A DNA stretch of 37,193 bases. It comes from a virus. Shown here in pieces: positions 7,683 through 35,977 of this stretch. The stretch covers positions 1 through 37,193 of IMG/VR virus record IMGVR_UViG_3300042396_000308. One strand, written 5' to 3'. Each line of letters begins with the position of its first letter. The stretch's first letter is position 1. The notes under the pieces were generated by a model. It had not been told where the DNA came from, did no database searches, and saw only the letters and a list, made by a program, of their open reading frames with translations. A program made the position numbers and the translations under genes.

Positions 7683-10625
7683 TTACCTCACCGCCGGTAC
7701 TTTGTCTTTGATGGTAACTAACGCCGCAGCCGCTATTTGCATATTTGCGTTAATGCCCTTCATTTCCCCTAATTGCGCTTTGTCGATGTTAGGGCCAACA
7801 TTGTTAGCAAACGCCAATTGAAGACGGTCAAAGGTTGCCCCCAAGCCCTCCATTGAAACATTTGCCTTAATCTGAAACCCACCCGGCTTTTCCAATCCGC
7901 CCTTAATCGTGCCAACTATTGCCCGAGCCATTTTCTTTGCCCGCTCGGTATTTTCTTCAAGCCTTTTTCCTAGTTCATTTCCTACGGGCGGGTTAACAAA
8001 GTCGCTAATCGCTGCGCCTACTTCCTTCGCTTTCTTTTTGTTTTCTTCCATGCCAACTTGCATTCCGTCAAGGTAGCTATCCATCTTCTTGCGCATTGCA
8101 GCGGTATCAAATATATCGGTATCGCCCTTGCCCGCCTGCCTCATTTTGTCGGCTGTATCTTTACTGATTAGCCCCATCTTTTCCATGATCCACGCCGCCG
8201 CTTTTGCAAGCTTGTTGATCATCCCCCACCAAAGGGCCGATATCGTATTAACAATTTCGGCAAACTTTTCAGCAATGGTAAAAATAAGGCTTACAACAAC
8301 TGAGGTAAAATTTTTCCAGCTTGAAAACATAAATTTGATCGCCCCGCCAACGCTTGAAATAATACCCCCGGTAGCATCCTCAAATGCGCCAAAGATGCCG
8401 TCGGCAACCTCCTTGACATAACCCCAAACTAATTTGAAAGCGTCAAGGATGAATGAAATCGTTGGCTTAACGGCCTTCTCGTATATCCACATGAAGCCAT
8501 CGGAAAGCGCACTAATCACCGCATCTGCCGCTGTTTGCAAATCAAGCCATGCTTCCACAACGGTAGACATGACCCCCTCGAAGCTTGAAGCATCCTCAAC
8601 GCTCGTACCAAAAAAGCTGGCTATTGATTCGGCAAGATAATCGACAACCCCGCCAATGGATTCGCTAACCGAGTTCCAACTTTCTTCCATACCTTCAAGC
8701 ATTGGCTTAACGGTTGAATCGTATTGGGAAACTACGCCCCCGCAGAACTTGTCAAACGCATCCCCCGCCCTTGTCCAAGCGTCCAAAAAGAATTCAATAA
8801 AGCTTGCAAGCACTTCTTCCCACGACTTGGTTGCATCAAACACCCCTGCAAAGTATCCCGCCATTGCCACGATTGCAGCCCCGGCCAATCCGATAGGGGA
8901 TAACAATGCAAAGACCGCCCCCGATAGCGCAGCAACGCCCGCAAGTAGGGTTGGTATCAACGCAGCAAAAGCCGCAACCGCAGCCGTTACCATTGCCCAG
9001 TTTGCAATGCTCGCCTTGGTTGATGCCGATAGCGTTTTAAAGTAGGCTGTAAACCTGTTTACCAAGTCTGTCGCAAGTCTGACATAGGGCGCAAACATAT
9101 CACCCACCACACGGCCCGCATACTCATACGACTTGGCCAACTGTTCCCCTTCAACGGTTCCAGCGGAAGCCGCCCGGGTAAGTGTTCCAACTGCTCCACC
9201 AATTGCTCCGCCTACGACAAGGGCCACCACCTGCATTTTTTGTAGCTTCCCGGTAATAGCCGCAATACCTTTTTCCGCTGCTGGCAGGCTTTTTGTATCA
9301 ACTTTTATTTCGGTCTTACCGCCTTTAACTACCGGGGCCAATTCTTTGCTTGCTTTTTCTTCTTTAGCCGCTGGCTTTGAAACCTTGCTGACAACCTTCA
9401 TTTCTTTAGCTGCTATTTTTTCTTCCATTGCCGCCAGTGCCGCCGCTGCCTTGGTTGTCTCTTTAAAAGCCCCAGTGCTTAAATTTAACTGCCGTGCTTC
9501 AAGTTGTAATTTTTTAGTTGCGATATCCGTGGCTTGGCTCGCCTTCATTTCAGCGGCCGCAAGTTTGACTGCCTCCTTATCGGTTGCCTGCATCTTCGCT
9601 ACCAGCAATTGGCTCTCGGCCCCAAGTAACTTTTCTTTGCTGGCCAAGTTTGCAATATTATTTGCGGAAGTTCTGAACGCTTTATCCGTTTTTAGCAGTA
9701 AACTTTCAAGACTTTTTTGGCCCTCCGATAGCTTGGCCTCGCTCTCCTTAAGCCGCATTTCCTCTTGCATTAATGCCTTGGTTGCACCGGATGCCACTTG
9801 TGATTGTGCAGCGTTTAGCGATAAGCTTCTAGTGGCAATATCCGTTGCCTTGGCTGCGCCAACTTCCGTGGCTGCTAACTTGATTGCCTCTTTATCAACC
9901 GCTTGCATCTTGGCTACTAGTGCTTGATTCTCGGCGGCAAATAGCTTTTGCTTGCCCGCTGAATTAGCAATCGCTAAAGCCTGCTTTTGAAAGCTGGCAT
10001 TAGTTTTCAGCAGGGAATTTTCAAGCGACTTTTCTGCCGTTATTAAAGCCAATTCTTGCCCTTGAAGTTTCATGTCGGCTTGCAATGCTTTTTCAGTTTC
10101 GCCGGTCTTCAACCGTAATGCCTGTGCGTTAAGCCCTAAAGTCTTTGCCGCCTGCTCCGTTGATTTTGCAACCCCCATTTCCGCAGCCGTTAACGCAATA
10201 CAAGCCTTATCGGTTGCCATCATCTTCGCCACAATGGCTTGATTCTCAGCGGCAAATAACTTTTGCTTTTGGGTTGTCCTTTGGATTTCTAATGCGCTAA
10301 ACCGGAACCCCTCGCTAGTTTTTAGCAAGGAATTTTCAAGCGACTTTTCCAGCGTGATTAGCTTTTGGGTTTGGACTTCCAGCCCGATAGACGAAAGCAT
10401 CATTGCCTTCGCTTGGCCCGACAGGCTTTTTAAAGCCGTTGCCTGCAAGGTGGTTGACTGCAACGCTTCCCGGTTGCGCTGCCCATAATTCTTGAATGAC
10501 TCGGCTAGGACTGCCGTTGCCTTGTGCGCAGTTTTGCTTTGCCCTTCAACGCCCTTGATTGCGGACTCGGTTTCTTCCAAGCCTTTGGCGACGAACTCAA
10601 TATAGCTTTCAGCCAGTTTTCCCAC
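7683..10625 (-). CDS. Tail tape measure protein
   Basis: 980 residues from a GTG start with an upstream TAGGAAGG site; it is the longest gene here, as expected for a tape measure. Residues 93 to about 405 are three tandem 105-residue alanine-rich helical repeats. A Lys/Ala linker follows, then a hydrophobic block at about 545-600 (runs such as VAAFAALIPTLLAGVAAL, then GLAGAAIVAMAGYFAGVF) suited to membrane insertion during DNA ejection, and a helical region with repeated Trp and Phe. The start overlaps the frameshift-encoded chaperone by 17 bases, the usual order chaperone then tape measure. No lysozyme or peptidase motif was seen. Confidence 0.92.
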   Translation of the reverse strand: MGKLAESYIEFVAKGLEETESAIKGVEGQSKTAHKATAVLAESFKNYGQRNREALQSTTLQATALKSLSGQAKAMMLSSIGLEVQTQKLITLEKSLENSLLKTSEGFRFSALEIQRTTQKQKLFAAENQAIVAKMMATDKACIALTAAEMGVAKSTEQAAKTLGLNAQALRLKTGETEKALQADMKLQGQELALITAEKSLENSLLKTNASFQKQALAIANSAGKQKLFAAENQALVAKMQAVDKEAIKLAATEVGAAKATDIATRSLSLNAAQSQVASGATKALMQEEMRLKESEAKLSEGQKSLESLLLKTDKAFRTSANNIANLASKEKLLGAESQLLVAKMQATDKEAVKLAAAEMKASQATDIATKKLQLEARQLNLSTGAFKETTKAAAALAAMEEKIAAKEMKVVSKVSKPAAKEEKASKELAPVVKGGKTEIKVDTKSLPAAEKGIAAITGKLQKMQVVALVVGGAIGGAVGTLTRAASAGTVEGEQLAKSYEYAGRVVGDMFAPYVRLATDLVNRFTAYFKTLSASTKASIANWAMVTAAVAAFAALIPTLLAGVAALSGAVFALLSPIGLAGAAIVAMAGYFAGVFDATKSWEEVLASFIEFFLDAWTRAGDAFDKFCGGVVSQYDSTVKPMLEGMEESWNSVSESIGGVVDYLAESIASFFGTSVEDASSFEGVMSTVVEAWLDLQTAADAVISALSDGFMWIYEKAVKPTISFILDAFKLVWGYVKEVADGIFGAFEDATGGIISSVGGAIKFMFSSWKNFTSVVVSLIFTIAEKFAEIVNTISALWWGMINKLAKAAAWIMEKMGLISKDTADKMRQAGKGDTDIFDTAAMRKKMDSYLDGMQVGMEENKKKAKEVGAAISDFVNPPVGNELGKRLEENTERAKKMARAIVGTIKGGLEKPGGFQIKANVSMEGLGATFDRLQLAFANNVGPNIDKAQLGEMKGINANMQIAAAALVTIKDKVPAVR
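9405..10349 (-). repeat. Three tandem 315-bp (105-aa) coding repeats in the tape measure gene
   Basis: Residues 93-197, 198-302 and 303-about 407 align without gaps at a period of exactly 105 codons. Anchor motifs recur in each copy: EKSLENSLLKT, EKSLENSLLKT, QKSLESLLLKT; then AAENQAIVAKM, AAENQALVAKM, GAESQLLVAKM. Because tape measure length sets tail length, repeat number should change tail length in fixed steps. Confidence 0.9.
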
Positions 10626-10830
10626 GGTTCGCCTTCCTACTTTGAATGAGTTTTATCGCCTCTGCAAAGCTCAGTTCCTTGCGGTAATGTTCCAGCGCAG
10701 CTAACTGCGGTAAAGACATTTCAGAAAGCTGTTGCAGGCTGTATCGGCCCTCCGATTTTTCCATCACATCTCGATACCATTTCGGCCGATCCTGTTCGCA
10801 CCAGCCCACCAAAAAGGACGGCCAATCTAG
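10609..10830 (-). CDS. Frameshift-encoded C-terminal domain of tail assembly chaperone (gpT-like)
   Basis: This frame has no Shine-Dalgarno or ATG of its own at its start; the first possible start is a TTG at 10812. It lies in the -1 frame of the upstream chaperone and is entered at G GGA AAC, just before that gene's TAG. The fusion would read ...GDSGN-LDWPSFLVGWCEQD... and add 73 residues to the 150-residue chaperone. The segment contains RYSLQQLSEMSLPQLAALEH, a helical pattern, and its stop overlaps the tape measure start. This is the lambda G/GT arrangement. Frameshifting is inferred from frame, slippery site and gene order. Confidence 0.8.
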   Translation of the reverse strand, partial: LDWPSFLVGWCEQDRPKWYRDVMEKSEGRYSLQQLSEMSLPQLAALEHYRKELSFAEAIKLIQSRKANRGKTG

Positions 10831-11279
10831 TTTCCCGAATCACCGCCCAGTTGAACTAGGCCCGAAGCCGTTGCAAGATCGCCCATAACAACCTCGGGCG
10901 TTGCTTGCTTAACCAAGGCAATGCAGGCTTCGTGCGTAAGCTCTGGATGATTCTTTTTAGCTAACAACCAAAACAAGAAAGCGCAGCCCGCATCGGATAA
11001 CATAGCATCACGATAAAAAGCCCCGTTTCCTTCTGCCCCGCCGTTGGCTTGCATCTTCACCGCTTCGGCTATTGCAAATTTTTGCAAGTCTTCTGGCAAC
11101 CCTTTGAGGCTGTCCGCAATTGCAGCCAGCGGGGTCTTCATAGTGCGCCTAAAATAATTGTGCAGCGTTCCGGTAATCTGATCGCTGATAGGGTCAATCA
11201 GAAAGGTCTTGCCAGCAATTACAACTGAACCCTTGCCCGCTGCTACTGACGCATTGAAATCGCCTTCATTACTCAACAT
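10827..11279 (-). CDS. Tail assembly chaperone (gpG-like)
   Basis: 150 residues between the tail tube and tape measure genes, the conserved slot of the siphophage tail chaperone. Residues 15-30 (GKGSVVIAGKTFLIDPI) and a following helical region fit a chaperone with a small beta N-terminal part. The C-terminus ends in LVQLGGDSGN, and the last two codons form part of a -1 slippery site. Ribosomes that slip make a longer G-T type fusion that would bind the tape measure. No sequence family can be named with certainty; the call rests on position and the frameshift. Confidence 0.82.
   Translation of the reverse strand: MLSNEGDFNASVAAGKGSVVIAGKTFLIDPISDQITGTLHNYFRRTMKTPLAAIADSLKGLPEDLQKFAIAEAVKMQANGGAEGNGAFYRDAMLSDAGCAFLFWLLAKKNHPELTHEACIALVKQATPEVVMGDLATASGLVQLGGDSGN
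10830..10836 (-). promoter_or_regulatory. -1 frameshift slippery site GGGAAAC in tail chaperone gene
   Basis: Read on the minus strand in phase G GGA AAC, immediately followed by the in-frame TAG of the chaperone. It has the X XXY YYZ form and differs from the lambda G-T slippery heptamer (GGGAAAG) only in the last base. The -1 frame stays open to 10609. Confidence 0.82.
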
Positions 11280-26377: not shown

Positions 26378-27442
26378 TTACTTTTTTCCCGGTGGCAAAA
26401 TAGCCCTCGCCCCGCCTTGCGACCGTATTTGACTCAGTACACTTTCAATAGGATAAGCCAACGGGTAAAGCCTTACCCTTTCCGACACCTTGTCAATTGC
26501 GTGCAACGCCTTTTCCTTTGCCTTTGGGTCGTCAATGTAATCCTCAACCCAAGCCCTTACGCCGTCTAGCGAGCTAATGTATTTTGGATCGCTTACGGTA
26601 GAGGATGAATCTTTGTAGTACCTTGCTTGAATCATTATGTCGGGAAATATTTGAGTTATCCGTTCCCACAAGTCGGGATCGATAGTTGCCACAATGTCCA
26701 CTATTTTTGAGGCTTGAACATTTATAGCAGTAGCCACACGCAACGGGGAACCGGCCCAACCACGGTCATCGTAATGCGGGCAGATGCCTGCGCCTTGGTC
26801 GTAAAGGTATTTAAGCACATCCATTTCTAGCCAGTCGTAGATAGGCTTGCACAAGCTGACCCGCTTGGAATTTTTGCTTTTGCAGATATGGCTTTCGTGC
26901 TTCTTTGAAAACAAGCTGGCCAACCGGTAGATAGACTCCGAAGTTCTCATGCCGTTAAAGATAGCGACCTTACCCTTGCCCATCCTAGCAGCCGCTAGGT
27001 CATCGCAACTGTACTGGTCTAAAATAGTTCCTTCCGGAATGCCGAGTTCTTTTTCAGTAATCGCCCACTCGGCCTTGGGTCTTATCCACTCCCGGCCCGG
27101 CCCCCATTGAACATATTGGAATGTCTGAGATAGGATGGAGTAGCTTCCCGCCATTGGGATACACCACCACTCGAGTTCTACCCAAGGCAAGGAACGAAAC
27201 CCTTTTACCCACTCCACCACCGAACCGTTAATAACTTCCTCATCTCGGAACCAAACTTTTATTTTTTTTGTTTCGCCCCGTTCGGTTAAGACTTCCCTAA
27301 GTAAATACAAGATGGTCATCGAGTCCTTGCCGCCCGAGAAGGAAACAATAGCCGAGTCGTGCGTATCTAGTATTTTTCGGATTCTGTTCTTTGCCTCGGT
27401 GACAACATCAACATCAATGAAGCATTGCTTGCGAGTCTTCAT
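26378..27442 (-). CDS. Phosphoadenosine phosphosulfate reductase-like protein (IbrA-like)
   Basis: 354 residues. PP-loop ATPase motif SFSGGKDS at residues 34-41. Later motifs NGMRTSES (about 168-175), CKSKNSKRVSLCKPIYDWLE and ICPHYDDRGW match the PAPS-reductase/IbrA type, in which Cys residues and a PI.DW segment follow the PP-loop. A true PAPS reductase is shorter and has a C-terminal ECGLH motif, which I do not see. It shares one base with the ParB gene on its right. Plausible chemistry: adenylation or sulfur transfer on nucleic acid. No substrate is evident. Confidence 0.85.
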   Translation of the reverse strand: MKTRKQCFIDVDVVTEAKNRIRKILDTHDSAIVSFSGGKDSMTILYLLREVLTERGETKKIKVWFRDEEVINGSVVEWVKGFRSLPWVELEWWCIPMAGSYSILSQTFQYVQWGPGREWIRPKAEWAITEKELGIPEGTILDQYSCDDLAAARMGKGKVAIFNGMRTSESIYRLASLFSKKHESHICKSKNSKRVSLCKPIYDWLEMDVLKYLYDQGAGICPHYDDRGWAGSPLRVATAINVQASKIVDIVATIDPDLWERITQIFPDIMIQARYYKDSSSTVSDPKYISSLDGVRAWVEDYIDDPKAKEKALHAIDKVSERVRLYPLAYPIESVLSQIRSQGGARAILPPGKK

Positions 27443-29949: not shown

Positions 29950-30339
29950 CTACACTCCCAAAGTTTGAACCGTTATCACAACGCTTGCATCCTCCGCCCC
30001 GATGGGTAATTCCATCAAGAGGGTTATTTTTTTTACAATGGTTGAATTGTCGTCCTCGATAATCCCCGTGTGTTTTAACAAGTCAATTAGCGGCTTGGCT
30101 AGGTTGTCCAAGTCACGATTCTTGCGCCAACCTTTGCCGGAGATTGCAACGATCTGAATTTCAAGCGGCCCTGCAACCTGCCCGGGCTTGCCTACCATTA
30201 GCCCTGCAACCTGCAACCATTTGCAGTATTGCCAAGATTTAACCACCCGCTTGCGGTAGCTCTTCCAAATGCTGTTTGCGCTAGGCGGAAGCGGTAGGGT
30301 TAGCGTTACGCTTCCCTGCGGTAAAGGTGTTGTTTTTAT
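29950..30339 (-). CDS. rusA: RusA-like Holliday junction resolvase, made by -1 frameshift
   Basis: 129 residues in the -1 frame of the upstream zinc-ribbon gene. RusA signatures: TLTLPLPPSANSIWKSYR (N-terminal) and RDLDNLAKPLIDLLKHTGII, EDDNSTIVKKI with the acidic Asp residues that bind Mg2+. The first canonical start, a GTG at 30246, would cut away the conserved N-terminal strand. No ATG, GTG or TTG precedes it in this frame. The frame is entered at C CCA AAA, exactly before the TAA of the upstream gene. An ATA start overlapping that stop is a less likely alternative. It resolves four-way DNA junctions during recombination. Confidence 0.82.
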   Translation of the reverse strand: MKTTPLPQGSVTLTLPLPPSANSIWKSYRKRVVKSWQYCKWLQVAGLMVGKPGQVAGPLEIQIVAISGKGWRKNRDLDNLAKPLIDLLKHTGIIEDDNSTIVKKITLLMELPIGAEDASVVITVQTLGV

Positions 30340-30701
30340 TTTGGGTATCCGTTCTCGGTGCTGGCTTGGGGTGTCAGCGACTCGGAATCATACCACGCCC
30401 GGGGCCACGGTTCAACAAATTTCTGCTCGCTGTTTTTTTCAAGCTCGCCTACCCGTGTTACCAATTCCAAGATTCGGGCAACCAATCTTTCCTTTTGAAG
30501 CCCCAACCGTTTAAGCGCAGCTTTGTGGGTGACAACAACATTGCGGGCGGTTCCCAGTTGGTCATGTAGCAAAAACACGGTTTCAATCCCTTCAGACAAA
30601 ATAAAACTGGCGTAGCATTTTCGGCAACGCTGTTTTCCCGTGAAGGTTTTCTGCACCATGCGCCCGCACTGGCGACACATTTTGTCATTCTTTCTAATCA
30701 T
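30336..30701 (-). CDS. Zinc-ribbon protein with coiled coil
   Basis: 121 residues. Cys9, Cys12, Cys26 and Cys29 (CRQCG and CRKCY) form a C-x2-C...C-x2-C zinc ribbon, followed by helices (about 60-92, ALKRLGLQKERLVARILELV) that look like a coiled coil. It would bind DNA or protein. Its end feeds into RusA by -1 frameshift, so a minor part of the product may be a zinc-ribbon/RusA fusion of about 250 residues. It overlaps the gene on its right by 4 bases. No specific family is recognised. Confidence 0.7.
   Translation of the reverse strand: MIRKNDKMCRQCGRMVQKTFTGKQRCRKCYASFILSEGIETVFLLHDQLGTARNVVVTHKAALKRLGLQKERLVARILELVTRVGELEKNSEQKFVEPWPRAWYDSESLTPQASTENGYPK
30339..30345 (-). promoter_or_regulatory. 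Probable -1 frameshift site CCCAAAA
   Basis: On the minus strand, phase C CCA AAA, followed directly by the TAA stop of the zinc-ribbon gene. X XXY YYZ form. The -1 frame runs without a stop into RusA. Downstream AGGG and CCCT with an inner AGCG/CGCT pair could form a stem about 20 bases after the site. Confidence 0.72.
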
Positions 30702-31390: not shown

Positions 31391-32249
31391 ATGCCACCTC
31401 CAACATCTTTGCCTTTGCTGGATCGTCCATCATCCTTTGAAGAGTCGCTTCCATGCTGGTATTAACCGCAGCCCCCGCCCTAACCCTTGGGTGATTTCTT
31501 TCCATAAATTCCCAAAGGTATTCGGTCTTTCTTCGGACTCTAGATTTCATGTCGTGAACGGCTTTGTCGTAATCCATCCCAGTTCGCAGGGCTTCGGAAA
31601 AATGCTCTAGAACTTTGGGAACCTGTTCACTTGCACAAGTGCCACGCCTTTGAAACAACCACATTCGGGTTAACTGCGCCGCCTGCTCTGCTGGGCTGTT
31701 TTCGTTTAAAGTTTCCATATAGGACTCTTTCTCTTTCTCTAACTCTAACTCTTTCTCTAACTCTTTCTCTAACTGAAAAGCAGTCACTTTCTGTCCGCAA
31801 TCTGTCGGTAGTTCGTCCGCAATCTGTCCACAATCTGTCCTAACTTTGTCCACACTTTGTCCGTTAAGTGTCTGCAAGTCTCTGGCTTTCTTGTCCGCCT
31901 TTTCCTTCGCCCGTAAGTCTTTTGCCCGTTGATAATCCTCCGCCCTGCGCTTACCAGTCTTACCATTATGCTCGCCGTAGTTCGTTAGCCTAATACTGTT
32001 AGGGTCAATCACTTCAAGCCAACCTACCGCAGCCATTGCCTCTGCAAAGCCCGGTAGCCCCATCTCCGCATCAAGATGCTTGGGGCCAAGTTTGATGTTA
32101 CCTTCAAGGCTGCTTTCATCTGCAATCGTCCAGATGGTAAATAATGCCCCAAGGATTTCCAGCTTTGAACGGTTAAGATCCCCCGCAAGTCGAATGACTT
32201 GGGGGGCTTTGAGTAACGAGGTTCGCATTTTTATCCAGTCGCCTGCCAT
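31380..32249 (-). CDS. Phage replication initiator (replisome organiser-like)
   Basis: 289 residues with AAGGAG before the ATG. Residues 1-95 (GDWIKMRTSLLKAPQVIRLA, LFTIWTIADESS, GPKHLDAEMGLPGFAEAMAA) form the winged-helix N-domain common in phage replication initiators. A charged low-complexity stretch (about 160-175, ELEKELEKELELEKEKE) separates it from a helical C-domain (MWLFQRRGTCASEQV). It would bind the phage origin and recruit the host helicase. No polymerase is in the window, so the phage appears to use the host replisome. Confidence 0.72.
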   Translation of the reverse strand: MAGDWIKMRTSLLKAPQVIRLAGDLNRSKLEILGALFTIWTIADESSLEGNIKLGPKHLDAEMGLPGFAEAMAAVGWLEVIDPNSIRLTNYGEHNGKTGKRRAEDYQRAKDLRAKEKADKKARDLQTLNGQSVDKVRTDCGQIADELPTDCGQKVTAFQLEKELEKELELEKEKESYMETLNENSPAEQAAQLTRMWLFQRRGTCASEQVPKVLEHFSEALRTGMDYDKAVHDMKSRVRRKTEYLWEFMERNHPRVRAGAAVNTSMEATLQRMMDDPAKAKMLEVAYGN

Positions 32250-32260
32250 GATTCGACTCC

Positions 32261-32767
32261 TTATTTAATTCGTAAATGGTTGCCACGGGGTAGGACGGTT
32301 ACCCCATGAATGGTTTCGCCAAGCTTAATTTTTTCACGGATCGCATCCATGTTTGGCATAACGGTTATCTTTTGAAGCTCTGCGGGCAGGTCTTCAGTTA
32401 GGGCGGTAACCTCCAAGGGCTGCAAGCCCCCGTTAGCGCATACACTCAACTTGAAAGTTTTGGTTTCCAATTTGGTAATGCCTTGCAAGCCAAAGAAATA
32501 ATGCAGCCTTGACTTAAGATTCTTGGCAAGGTTTCCATCTTGGGAAGATAGGGCCATGATCCTGTCGGCTTCCTGTTTGCGGGCCAAGCTGTTCAACTCG
32601 CATTCCCGAATAAGCCTGCAATAGTTCTCAACCTTTTGCTCAATGTTGCCTTCCAGTTCGGCTAACAGTTGGTCAATAATTGGATCAAGTTCGCCCCCTT
32701 CCGGTAGGTCTTGGTTGACCCACTCAGATAGAATCCTTGAACCAGTATGCAAATCTAAAATGCTCAT
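32261..32767 (-). CDS. Siphovirus Gp157 family protein
   Basis: 168 residues with GGAGG before the ATG. Helical N-half (QDLPEGGELDPIIDQLLAEL, KVENYCRLIRECELNSLARK), then NLKSRLHYFFGLQGITKLET and FKLSVCANGG; the C-terminal part ends in 'LGETIHGVTVLPRGNHLRIK'. This is the characteristic Gp157 pattern, including the '..TKF..' strand and the 'G..I.GV.' end. Members often neighbour recombination genes. Its biochemical role is not settled; proposed roles link it to phage resistance or recombination. Confidence 0.87.
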   Translation of the reverse strand: MSILDLHTGSRILSEWVNQDLPEGGELDPIIDQLLAELEGNIEQKVENYCRLIRECELNSLARKQEADRIMALSSQDGNLAKNLKSRLHYFFGLQGITKLETKTFKLSVCANGGLQPLEVTALTEDLPAELQKITVMPNMDAIREKIKLGETIHGVTVLPRGNHLRIK

Positions 32768-32768
32768 G

Positions 32769-33584
32769 TTATCGTCCTCCGTTAACGGTTGCGGTTAATG
32801 CTTTGAGATCGTCAATAATAGTTTCAGCGGCTTCGTAGGAAAGTTCCTTGGGCGAATCTACACCGTAGTCTTCACGAACCATCTTGCCCCACTGAGCTTG
32901 TTCGGCTGGCGTAAAGTTCGCTGCCTTTTTCAATCGGGTTAGCTCTTTCAGTTGGGCTTCGGTTGCAAGCTCCGGTTCCATATCGTCGCCCGGCCCCATG
33001 CGTTCCACTGGTACTACTGCCACTGGCTTGGGTGCTGGTGCTGGCTTGGGTTGTTCCACTGGTTTGGCAATCGCCAAAGGTGCAGCGGGTTCGGGGATGA
33101 TCCTTGCGCTTGGAATGGTTTCAGCTTCAGTTTCATCCAGCCAACCAAGCCCGCATAGGGAAAGTGTTGCCCTGCGCTTTGCCTTCGTTATCGCTTTCAT
33201 GTGAGCATTAGCAAGCATTTCGCCCCTTAACCCATCAACGGAAACGCAACCAATGTCGCTATCTTCCCTGCCTGTTTTATCTCGTACTGTTGCAGTAACG
33301 GTAACAAGCCCGCCTGCTGCCACGGTTTGAACGGATACCACGCTTACCCCATGAATAGTGCGTAGCTGGTCGGTGCAGGCACGAAGCGCATATAGGGTTA
33401 CTTTGCCTTGCAGAAGGATATAGCCAAAGGGTTTCGTATGCGGATTAAGGCCCAAACTCTCGCATACCTGCATATAATGCTTAAGCTTTTCCTCGACTGA
33501 TAGTTTGCCCAAATCGCCTTCGATAAGTGCTGCTTCAACTCGTGAAGCAAGATTCATTGGTGCTGCTGTTACAAGGCTTGACAT
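32769..33584 (-). CDS. Putative single-strand annealing recombination protein
   Basis: 271 residues. Conserved core: HYMQVCESLGLNPHTKPFGY, ILLQGKVTLYALRACTDQLR, GRLANAHMKAITKAKRRATL (reading GEMLANAHMKAITKAKRRAT) and GLGWLDETEAETIP. This family recurs in phages and plasmids and has the look of annealing-type recombination proteins, though I cannot assign it firmly to RecT, Erf or Sak. A Pro/Ala-rich linker (about 165-205) precedes a C-terminal helical part. Its neighbours Gp157 and RusA support a recombination role. It would pair single strands and the RusA fusion would resolve junctions. Confidence 0.6.
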   Translation of the reverse strand: MSSLVTAAPMNLASRVEAALIEGDLGKLSVEEKLKHYMQVCESLGLNPHTKPFGYILLQGKVTLYALRACTDQLRTIHGVSVVSVQTVAAGGLVTVTATVRDKTGREDSDIGCVSVDGLRGEMLANAHMKAITKAKRRATLSLCGLGWLDETEAETIPSARIIPEPAAPLAIAKPVEQPKPAPAPKPVAVVPVERMGPGDDMEPELATEAQLKELTRLKKAANFTPAEQAQWGKMVREDYGVDSPKELSYEAAETIIDDLKALTATVNGGR

Positions 33585-33766
33585 TTAGAACTCCGGTTTA
33601 AAAATTTTTCTCGAACAATAACTACACTTTGGGGGGCTGAAAAAACGATCTTCGCCCGCCCCTGTTCGCAATGGGCCACACTGACCCAGCAAACCTCTCC
33701 GCCAATAGCCACTGCAATTCGTTCGCCGACTTTGCAGGTTAAAACTAGTCCTTTAATTTCTTCCAT
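33569..33766 (-). CDS. csrA: CsrA-like RNA-binding regulator
   Basis: 65 residues. Typical CsrA pattern: LVLTCKVGERIAVA (7-20), then AKIVFSAPQSVVIVREKFL (38-56). The Leu-rich first strand, GER at 14-16, AP at 44-45 and VRE at 51-53 (Arg52 corresponds to the RNA-binding Arg44) are kept. CsrA binds GGA-containing mRNA leaders, often blocking the Shine-Dalgarno site. The start of this gene is preceded by CAAGGATG, a full match to the CsrA core, so it may regulate itself. The gene overlaps the annealing protein by 16 bases. Phage-encoded CsrA is known but not common. Confidence 0.85.
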   Translation of the reverse strand: MEEIKGLVLTCKVGERIAVAIGGEVCWVSVAHCEQGRAKIVFSAPQSVVIVREKFLNRSSKCQAL

Positions 33767-33855: not shown

Positions 33856-34362
33856 CTAGAAAGGGCCGTATATTAAAACTTTTGATTGTGCGTCGGTAAT
33901 GCCGGGGTATTGATGGACATACAATTCACCAATTGCAGTCTCGGCATCGTCGGCCGGAAGAAACTGATTACCATTCCAGTACGACCACTCAACCCAAGCC
34001 TTGGGATAGTTCAACGCCACGAAAGGCATAAAAACTTGCAGCGTTCCAATACTCTTGGGGTGAATCCAAGTGTAGTAACCCTTCTCGGTTGCGCTTAATC
34101 CATCTCGGTTCCAGACTAAATAATCGGGAATAAGCTCATCGAAAAAGTCGCCCGCTTTTTCTTCAGCGTGAACGCTCGCTAAGTGGCTAGCCTTGTCTTT
34201 TTCTGCTTGCAATGCCAAGTCTTCGGCAAGCTTTTTGGCTAGCTTCTTTTCGTACAACCTGCCCACGGTTGCAATCTGCCTATCGGCTTCTTCGCCCCGT
34301 GGTCTTTTCCACTTTGCCCCCGCTGCTGCTGATATCAGTTCCGCTTCCTGTTGAGTCATCAT
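33856..34362 (-). CDS. Hypothetical protein, first gene of the early operon
   Basis: 168 residues. The ATG at 34362 (or the next codon) follows an AAGGA-type site. The N-terminal 65 residues are basic and helical (GRLYEKKLAKKLAEDLALQA), then FFDELIPDYLVWNRDGLSA and a strand-rich end (YVHQYPGITDAQSKVLIYGP). No domain is recognised. First gene after the leftward early promoter, next to the csrA gene. It may be an early regulator or anti-host protein; nothing in the sequence proves it. Confidence 0.6.
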   Translation of the reverse strand: MMTQQEAELISAAAGAKWKRPRGEEADRQIATVGRLYEKKLAKKLAEDLALQAEKDKASHLASVHAEEKAGDFFDELIPDYLVWNRDGLSATEKGYYTWIHPKSIGTLQVFMPFVALNYPKAWVEWSYWNGNQFLPADDAETAIGELYVHQYPGITDAQSKVLIYGPF

Positions 34363-34403
34363 TACAAGTTCCTTAAAAGAGGTTTCATCACTACACTATA
34401 TTT

Positions 34404-34432
34404 ATGTTAACACTTAGCAAACACAAAATCAA
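34404..34432 (-). promoter_or_regulatory. Leftward early promoter
   Basis: On the minus strand TTGATT (34427-34432), 17 bases, TAACAT (34404-34409). It is about 45 bases before the first early gene and diverges from the plus-strand promoter, so the two share one control region. Confidence 0.62.
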
Positions 34433-34455
34433 CTACAAATATTTAAAATAATATG

Positions 34456-34484
34456 TTGCGGTTTGCAATAACCCCCGCTATAAT
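34456..34484 (+). promoter_or_regulatory. Rightward promoter of the RHH gene
   Basis: TTGCGG (34456-34461), 17 bases, TATAAT (34479-34484): a perfect -10 box with ideal spacing. The -35 is within TTGC..GCAA, a small inverted repeat. The leader then runs about 35 bases to the RHH start. Confidence 0.82.
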
Positions 34485-34527
34485 GTCCGTAGTGGTTTCT
34501 CCGTTTCATTTTTAAATGAGGTGTGGT

Positions 34528-34746
34528 ATGTTTCTATCCACTATGGCACGACCAAAAAAATTCACCGAAGGCGCAATCCAACTTGGCTGGCGTTTGGATG
34601 GCAAAGACGAACCCTTGTTGAAGGGTCTTCAAGCCTATGCAGACGCACACCGGTTATCTAGGAACTCGGCCCTTACCATTGCGGTTGAGCGTTTGCTTGC
34701 CCAGTGGGAAAAGGAAAAGTCCGAAGCTAAAAAGCTGAAGTCCTAA
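34528..34746 (+). CDS. Ribbon-helix-helix regulator (CopG/Arc-like)
   Basis: 72 residues from the ATG at 34528, which follows TGAGGTG; a second ATG is five codons in. Sequence: MARPKKFTEGAIQLGWRLDG, then helix pair (LLKGLQAYADAHRLSRNSAL, TIAVERLLAQWEKE) and a basic tail. This is the CopG/Arc layout: one strand for DNA contact, two helices, and the NSAL turn. It is the only plus-strand gene with its own strong promoter. It likely represses the leftward early promoter as part of the lysogeny switch (inference). The stop converges on the gp88 gene (shared CTAA). Confidence 0.8.
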   Translation: MFLSTMARPKKFTEGAIQLGWRLDGKDEPLLKGLQAYADAHRLSRNSALTIAVERLLAQWEKEKSEAKKLKS

Positions 34747-35444: not shown

Positions 35445-35542
35445 GCTAACCCCTAATAAAAACTTGCCCCGCACCCGTGTTGCTTAAGCCGGGCCTGCCT
35501 TGCCGCCACTTGCCAGTGAGCAAAGCAGTTGCGGAGCAATGC

Positions 35543-35977
35543 TCATGTAATTTTTTTGAACTTGTCCACGGATACCAGTACGCATGGTTCCATATCTTGG
35601 GAATCGCCCCTATCGGTTCTGCCCCCGTAGACTAGATTCTCGGCAAAGAAATCGCTGATCGTTGCAACCCATATGCCGTCTTGCGTACCCACTGCCAGCA
35701 CGAACTTTAGGCCCGTGGTGTCGTAAACTTGTTTGGCGTTCATCCACTTGGTAAGGGCGATCATATAGCCGCCCATTCGCTCAATCTCAGCCATCGTATA
35801 ATTGCGCTGCTTAACCTCAACAAATGCGACAAGTCTACTATTGCGAACGGCAACAAAGTCGATTTTGTAAAGCCTTGGGGCTGCAAGTAGGGTGCAGCGG
35901 AAGTGGGTTGATACCGCTTCGCCTACACGGGCTTCGTTGGCTCGGTCTTTATCAGTTTCATGGTGTCTTAAAATAAT
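35543..35977 (-). CDS. PD-(D/E)XK nuclease-like ORF lacking a normal start
   Basis: The frame opens after a TGA at 35978 and runs 144 codons. Codes for ETDKDRANEARVGEAVSTHF, then APRLYKIDFVAVRNSRLVAF and VEVKQR. The Asp in YKID and Glu-x-Lys in VEVK form a PD-(D/E)XK (VRR-Nuc/resolvase-like) catalytic core. No ATG, GTG or TTG lies before this core; only ATT or the ATG at 35794 (after the core) exist. The frame begins at a tRNA-like element, so the 5' end may have been removed by recombination at an att site, or a rare ATT start is used. Confidence 0.55.
   Translation of the reverse strand: MILRHHETDKDRANEARVGEAVSTHFRCTLLAAPRLYKIDFVAVRNSRLVAFVEVKQRNYTMAEIERMGGYMIALTKWMNAKQVYDTTGLKFVLAVGTQDGIWVATISDFFAENLVYGGRTDRGDSQDMEPCVLVSVDKFKKIT

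Follow-up and report, generated by a model that had tools for sequence, protein, structure and literature searches.

A RusA resolvase gene without a standard start codon, a candidate for -1 frameshifting or AUA initiation in an uncultured phage

A gene that possesses no standard start codon ahead of its conserved N-terminus raises the question of how ribosomes reach it. Such a gene, encoding a putative Holliday-junction resolvase of the RusA type, is found in the window analysed here, the 37,193 nucleotides of an uncultured phage in the IMG/VR virus record IMGVR_UViG_3300042396_000308 (positions 1-37,193). It belongs to a replication/recombination operon on the minus strand, which comprises a Sipho_Gp157/Mu Gam-like gene, a replication initiation protein, a 230-aa gene, a zinc ribbon, RusA and an 89-aa gene. 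The original prediction held that RusA is made by -1 frameshifting from the zinc-ribbon gene. We find that the missing start is real, and offer frameshifting as a fair hypothesis rather than as a result.

Anatomy of the zinc-ribbon/RusA junction

The features of the junction are given below, where L013 denotes IMGVR_UViG_3300010885_044250, the sole relative that covers it.

30336..30701 (-): zinc-ribbon gene starting with ATG; its 121-aa product contains two CxxC pairs
30339..30345 (-): C_CCA_AAA, a candidate slippery heptamer that abuts the stop of the zinc-ribbon frame, in which it is read; identical in L013
30336..30338 (-): TAA stop of the zinc-ribbon frame
30337..30339 (-): ATA read in the frame of RusA and a candidate non-AUG start, overlapping the stop as ATAA in the manner of an ATGA four-nucleotide overlap
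29950..30339 (-): RusA frame counted from the ATA (129 codons and the TAG)
30307..30309 (-): GTA, minor candidate start, 7 residues ahead of PPS, the place at which typical RusA proteins begin
30244..30246 (-): GTG, first standard start in the RusA frame, within the domain; GTT in L013
30262..30380 (-): block of 119 nt across the junction without a difference between window and L013

The zinc-ribbon gene ends in GGA TAC CCA AAA TAA, and the RusA frame lies exactly at -1 to it. A TGA closes the RusA frame on its upstream side, and from 30387 it is open until its own stop, the TAG at 29952-29950. It runs 127 codons beyond the 0-frame stop and carries the RusA domain. The frame positions bear out the prediction that C_CCA_AAA abuts the zinc-ribbon stop with RusA at -1 and no stop between them, and a slip would give 121 + 129 = 250 residues (...NGYPK followed by IKTTPLPQ...), in agreement with the fusion of about 250 residues that had been proposed. 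The absence of a standard start ahead of the conserved N-terminus is likewise confirmed. Between 30387 and the internal GTG at 30246, which has LTLPLPPSANSIW upstream of it, there is no ATG, GTG or TTG in this frame, and the near-cognate codons considered are ATA at 30348, ATA at 30339 and GTA at 30309. The GTG itself was rejected as the RusA start because it would delete the conserved N-terminal strand; it is GTT in L013 and therefore not a conserved start. A sequencing or assembly error at the junction was also rejected, since L013, a second contig, reads the same there letter for letter. The missing standard start is the more unusual part of the locus, and the heptamer by itself is only moderately surprising.

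Judged by profile and active-site residues, the downstream frame is a member of the RusA family. It matches the Pfam RusA domain (PF05866; E 1.8e-6, 29 bits against a cut-off of 22.8) and PHROG 34 (RusA) at 5.5e-16. Residues D76, D78, K82 and D97 align with D70, D72, K76 and D91 of E. coli RusA, which we take to be its catalytic residues, and both RDLDN..K and DD are aligned in the phmmer alignment to 1q8r. The gene shares with the RusA Holliday-junction resolvases (E. coli RusA, PDB 1q8r, 2h8c) the domain, the conserved N-terminal strand and the Asp/Lys active site, whereas it differs from them in having no standard start and a zinc-ribbon frame ahead of it at -1.

Presence of the junction in a second phage

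Wider searches for RusA/zinc-ribbon relatives yielded L013 as the one relative across the junction. A further record, 3300043468_000763, ends inside RusA at residue 47, and a 37% cousin (L005) has its own starts and a different upstream gene. No ATG version of the junction was found in viral contigs with the pattern CCNAARTRAAAACAACNCC, where L013 alone among the 17 stretches returned was RusA. The RusA of Xanthomonas phage XapPhi1 was considered as a parallel case and rejected for its ordinary ATG; that gene (L029:1010-1366) is intact, has a good Shine-Dalgarno (SD) sequence and is unannotated in the public record.

Both genes are well preserved between the window and L013. The zinc ribbons are 84% identical and keep both CxxC pairs (dN 0.09, dS 0.83), and the RusA proteins are 99% identical. 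Because only 1 of 129 RusA residues differs despite 24 synonymous codon changes (29 nucleotide differences in all, one codon change altering the amino acid; dN 0.017, dS 0.32, dN/dS about 0.05), the comparison indicates that RusA is under purifying selection and has not decayed. The upstream neighbour of the zinc ribbon differs in L013, yet the zinc-ribbon/RusA junction is kept, and thus the pair holds together, a point that we count for frameshifting. The gene inserted there, which separates the 230-aa gene from the zinc ribbon (L003:1793-2626, L003 being another handle for the same contig), encodes 277 aa with FSGGRTSGFM and by eye looks like a protein of the PAPS-reductase/ATP-pyrophosphatase type. 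An SGGKDS motif is also present in another gene of the window, 26378-27442 (-).

The heptamer, the stop and the missing start are all identical in L013. An ATG start without the heptamer, which the original prediction had named as contrary evidence in related phages, is therefore not what this relative carries, but the 119-nt identical block around the junction makes the alignment a weak test of conservation. Either constraint or recent recombination may lie behind the block, and a missing start common to both phages is thus no proof of long conservation. Across the 9,260 columns of the alignment, 15.7% of which differ, only one identical run is longer, and runs of 119 nt or more account for 2.7% of the columns. 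Similar blocks of 135, 105, 97 and 95 nt occur elsewhere in the alignment. Long identical blocks amid about 16% divergence, at 34398-34532, 35489-35593 and 32194-32290, some of them spanning gene junctions, represent either recombination or conserved signals.

The block also bears on whether RusA is expressed at all. The junction could be a recent hypomorphic or null allele in which a G-to-A change abolished an ancestral ATG and recombination then spread the junction between the two phages, leaving RusA poorly made or silent. Its position in an identical block between more divergent flanks would suit such a history, and the selection seen on the remaining RusA may predate the loss. However, both phages have an intact RusA frame that retains the catalytic residues, and the other identical blocks of like size need no special cause; we consider this explanation unlikely.

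Candidate routes to RusA translation

The reading that we hold plausible, at a little short of even confidence, is -1 frameshifting on C_CCA_AAA. From the layout of the genes we infer the slip, its rate, its product and the role of that product as follows. RusA would be a functional gene translated only by ribosomes fresh from the zinc-ribbon gene. With TAA waiting as the next codon, a low-level -1 slip would take tRNA-Pro off CCA and onto CCC, and tRNA-Lys off one AAA and onto another, so that most ribosomes would produce the 121-aa zinc ribbon and a few the 250-aa zinc-ribbon/RusA fusion. This route would keep the resolvase scarce and supply it with an N-terminal zinc ribbon, and some stand-alone RusA might arise from the overlapping AUA at the same site.

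The class of the motif, its place before the stop, the frame and the absence of a standard start all speak for the proposed slip. Without stimulators, C_CC.A_AA.A is one of 18 motifs that shift in E. coli at above 0.10%, and the top-ranking heptamer, C_CC.A_AA.G, reached 54% with a pseudoknot (PMC4066793). According to Sharma et al. (PMC4066793), cognate re-pairing in the A site defines the efficient bacterial motifs, and the slip envisaged here would be of this kind. The lack of a convincing ribosome-binding site at any candidate RusA start also counts in its favour; the SD at the ATA amounts to -3.3 kcal/mol, compared with -5 to -12.7 kcal/mol at most ordinary starts of the phage. The last value belongs to the ATG of the zinc ribbon itself, which overlaps the preceding gene as ATGA and has a very strong SD (AAGGAGGUG).

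The same phage also provides a positive control, a canonical site whose shared layout we count for frameshifting as well. A gene at 11279..10827 (-), which probably encodes a tail assembly chaperone and lies shortly before the tape measure gene, ends in G_GGA_AAC_TAG (heptamer 10836-10830) and is followed by 71 further codons at -1, the whole region being 10609-11279. Its hairpin (-27.8 kcal/mol, z -2.94) starts 6 nt after the heptamer. Two other terminal heptamers were rejected as recoding sites. C_CCT_TTC_TAG at the end of the gene 34362..33856 is probably a coincidence, as the CsrA gene downstream at -1 has its own ATG and only 38 codons are open in L013; that gene encodes a CsrA-family regulator (33569-33766, minus strand; Pfam E 9.4e-8). 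At A_AAA_AAG_TAA, which ends the gene 26378-27442 (-), the -1 frame closes after 4 codons.

Against frameshifting at RusA stand the missing stimulators, the frequency of terminal heptamers and the possible recombination block. No hairpin that satisfies published rules lies 4-10 nt after the heptamer, and the 91 nt from the heptamer end onward fold no better than shuffles (z -0.41), in contrast to the tail-chaperone site; a stimulatory RNA structure was therefore rejected within the scope of this hairpin scan and of folds free of pseudoknots. Upstream, an SD-like stimulator was sought and only GAG or GGA trinucleotides were found, a match of 3 bases. At bacterial -1 sites a downstream hairpin is common and not obligatory, and an upstream SD is optional. 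Heptamers occupy 0.7-0.8% of codons, and one stands directly before the stop in about 6% of phage ORFs (12 of 203, counting those with about 100 aa or more); orthologues of each other and of the two sites at issue are among the 12. The heptamer thus shifts the balance towards frameshifting by no more than about the inverse of 6%, and the frame alone does not favour it, because -1 is automatic in a four-nucleotide overlap. It also counts against frameshifting that the RusA enzymes characterised so far do their work with no zinc ribbon attached, and that annotated phages and plasmids yielded no zinc-ribbon relative. Elsewhere, fusions of a zinc ribbon to RusA in a single frame were not found.

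The chief rival is initiation at AUA by translational coupling. Ribosomes ending at the TAA would restart at the overlapping ATA at 30339 and make a stand-alone RusA of 129 aa with Met as residue 1, the heptamer then being a coincidence. ATAA would be an ATGA overlap with a single G-to-A change that removed the ATG and turned TGA into TAA. An AUA-initiated RusA without the zinc ribbon had been named at the outset as an alternative that would count against frameshifting, and it does fit the four-nucleotide geometry exactly, which recurs as ATGA at three further junctions of the phage, though the SD at the ATA is a weak one of 3 bases. RusA homologues stand alone with their own ATG, that of the cousin L005 aligning with the ATA of the window, and AUA initiation requires no frameshift stimulator. 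AUA starts are real in bacteria, where S. aureus infC, ccpN and citZ reach about 10-30% of the AUG version (PMC13009471); non-AUG re-initiation is possible with matching initiator tRNAs (PMC2268962), and low-level AUA initiation has been suspected in frameshift reporters (PMC4066793), all of which count for this rival. On the other side, an SD of -3 kcal/mol is reached by 41% of random positions, and the non-AUG starts of S. aureus infC, ccpN and cvfC1 have extended SDs (PMC13009471), unlike the ATA here. The adjacent heptamer of an efficient class would be left to chance (about 6% or less), and the leader from the ATA would be long, 17 residues before PPS compared with 6-10 in most phage RusA relatives checked, while L005 has 20 from its ATG. 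We regard AUA initiation as a serious contender but on balance doubtful.

Starts at other unusual codons are also conceivable. The GTA at 30309 aligns with the Met of MKLTLPFPPS-type RusA, exactly where typical RusA begins, and has the best SD among the candidates (-4.2 kcal/mol), but this SD is too close to it; the SD of the other codon, the ATA at 30348, reaches -3.0. GUA, which departs from AUG in two of its three letters, is to our knowledge not an established start. A start at either codon seems very improbable, and a small part of the weight goes to none of the readings named here.

Comparison with known systems and meaning

As an expression site, the junction resembles a -1 frameshift site or a coupled overlap and fits the full definition of neither, because the stimulators are missing for the former and the start codon for the latter. 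It shares with the tail assembly chaperones G/GT of lambda and many dsDNA phages an X_XXY_YYZ heptamer just before the 0-frame stop and a downstream -1 frame that does not use a start of its own, but those are tail morphogenesis genes with a strong downstream hairpin, which the RusA site lacks. With ATGA-type coupled pairs it shares the four-nucleotide stop/start overlap and a downstream gene at -1, whereas the start here would be ATA, in both phages, and not ATG.

The closest precedent for a combination of the two is IS911, an IS3-family element whose transposase genes orfA/orfB are described in passages of PMC4066793 and PMC5009743, citing Prere et al. (2011), as employing both AUU initiation and -1 frameshifting. 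As far as these passages go, IS911 and the RusA site have in common a slippery heptamer in the -1 arrangement, a downstream frame with a non-AUG start, which is a candidate one at RusA, and a fused product, which is predicted at RusA; both routes can thus serve one gene. IS911 differs in having a strong SD and a three-way-junction stem-loop, and its product is a transposase; a strong SD and a downstream structure that could assist both routes were not found at the RusA site, and the product there is a resolvase. At the level of sequence, the heptamer and the non-AUG start for one downstream frame are present, and the slip and the AUA restart could act together. We tentatively suggest, as something less likely than an even chance, that the resolvase is made only as a scarce C-terminal extension of the zinc-ribbon protein through a slip on C_CCA_AAA_UAA, possibly with an AUA-initiated form in addition, and that recoding sets both its dose and its targeting.

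A frameshift-expressed Holliday-junction resolvase, which the original prediction did not know from the literature, is indeed absent from the papers searched, where RusA and frameshifting occur together only as unrelated co-mentions; these papers cover little of the subscription literature, and their silence weighs little.

Established cases of -1 frameshifting are dominated by tail assembly genes in tailed phages and by transposases in mobile elements. If RusA is frameshifted, recoding would extend to phage DNA metabolism, and this would suggest dose control of a junction-cutting enzyme. If it is initiated at AUA, the gene has a rare AUA start that lacks a strong Shine-Dalgarno sequence and that two phages retain. 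On both readings, automatic annotation would cut the gene back to the internal GTG or miss it, and therefore RusA genes of this kind are probably under-counted.
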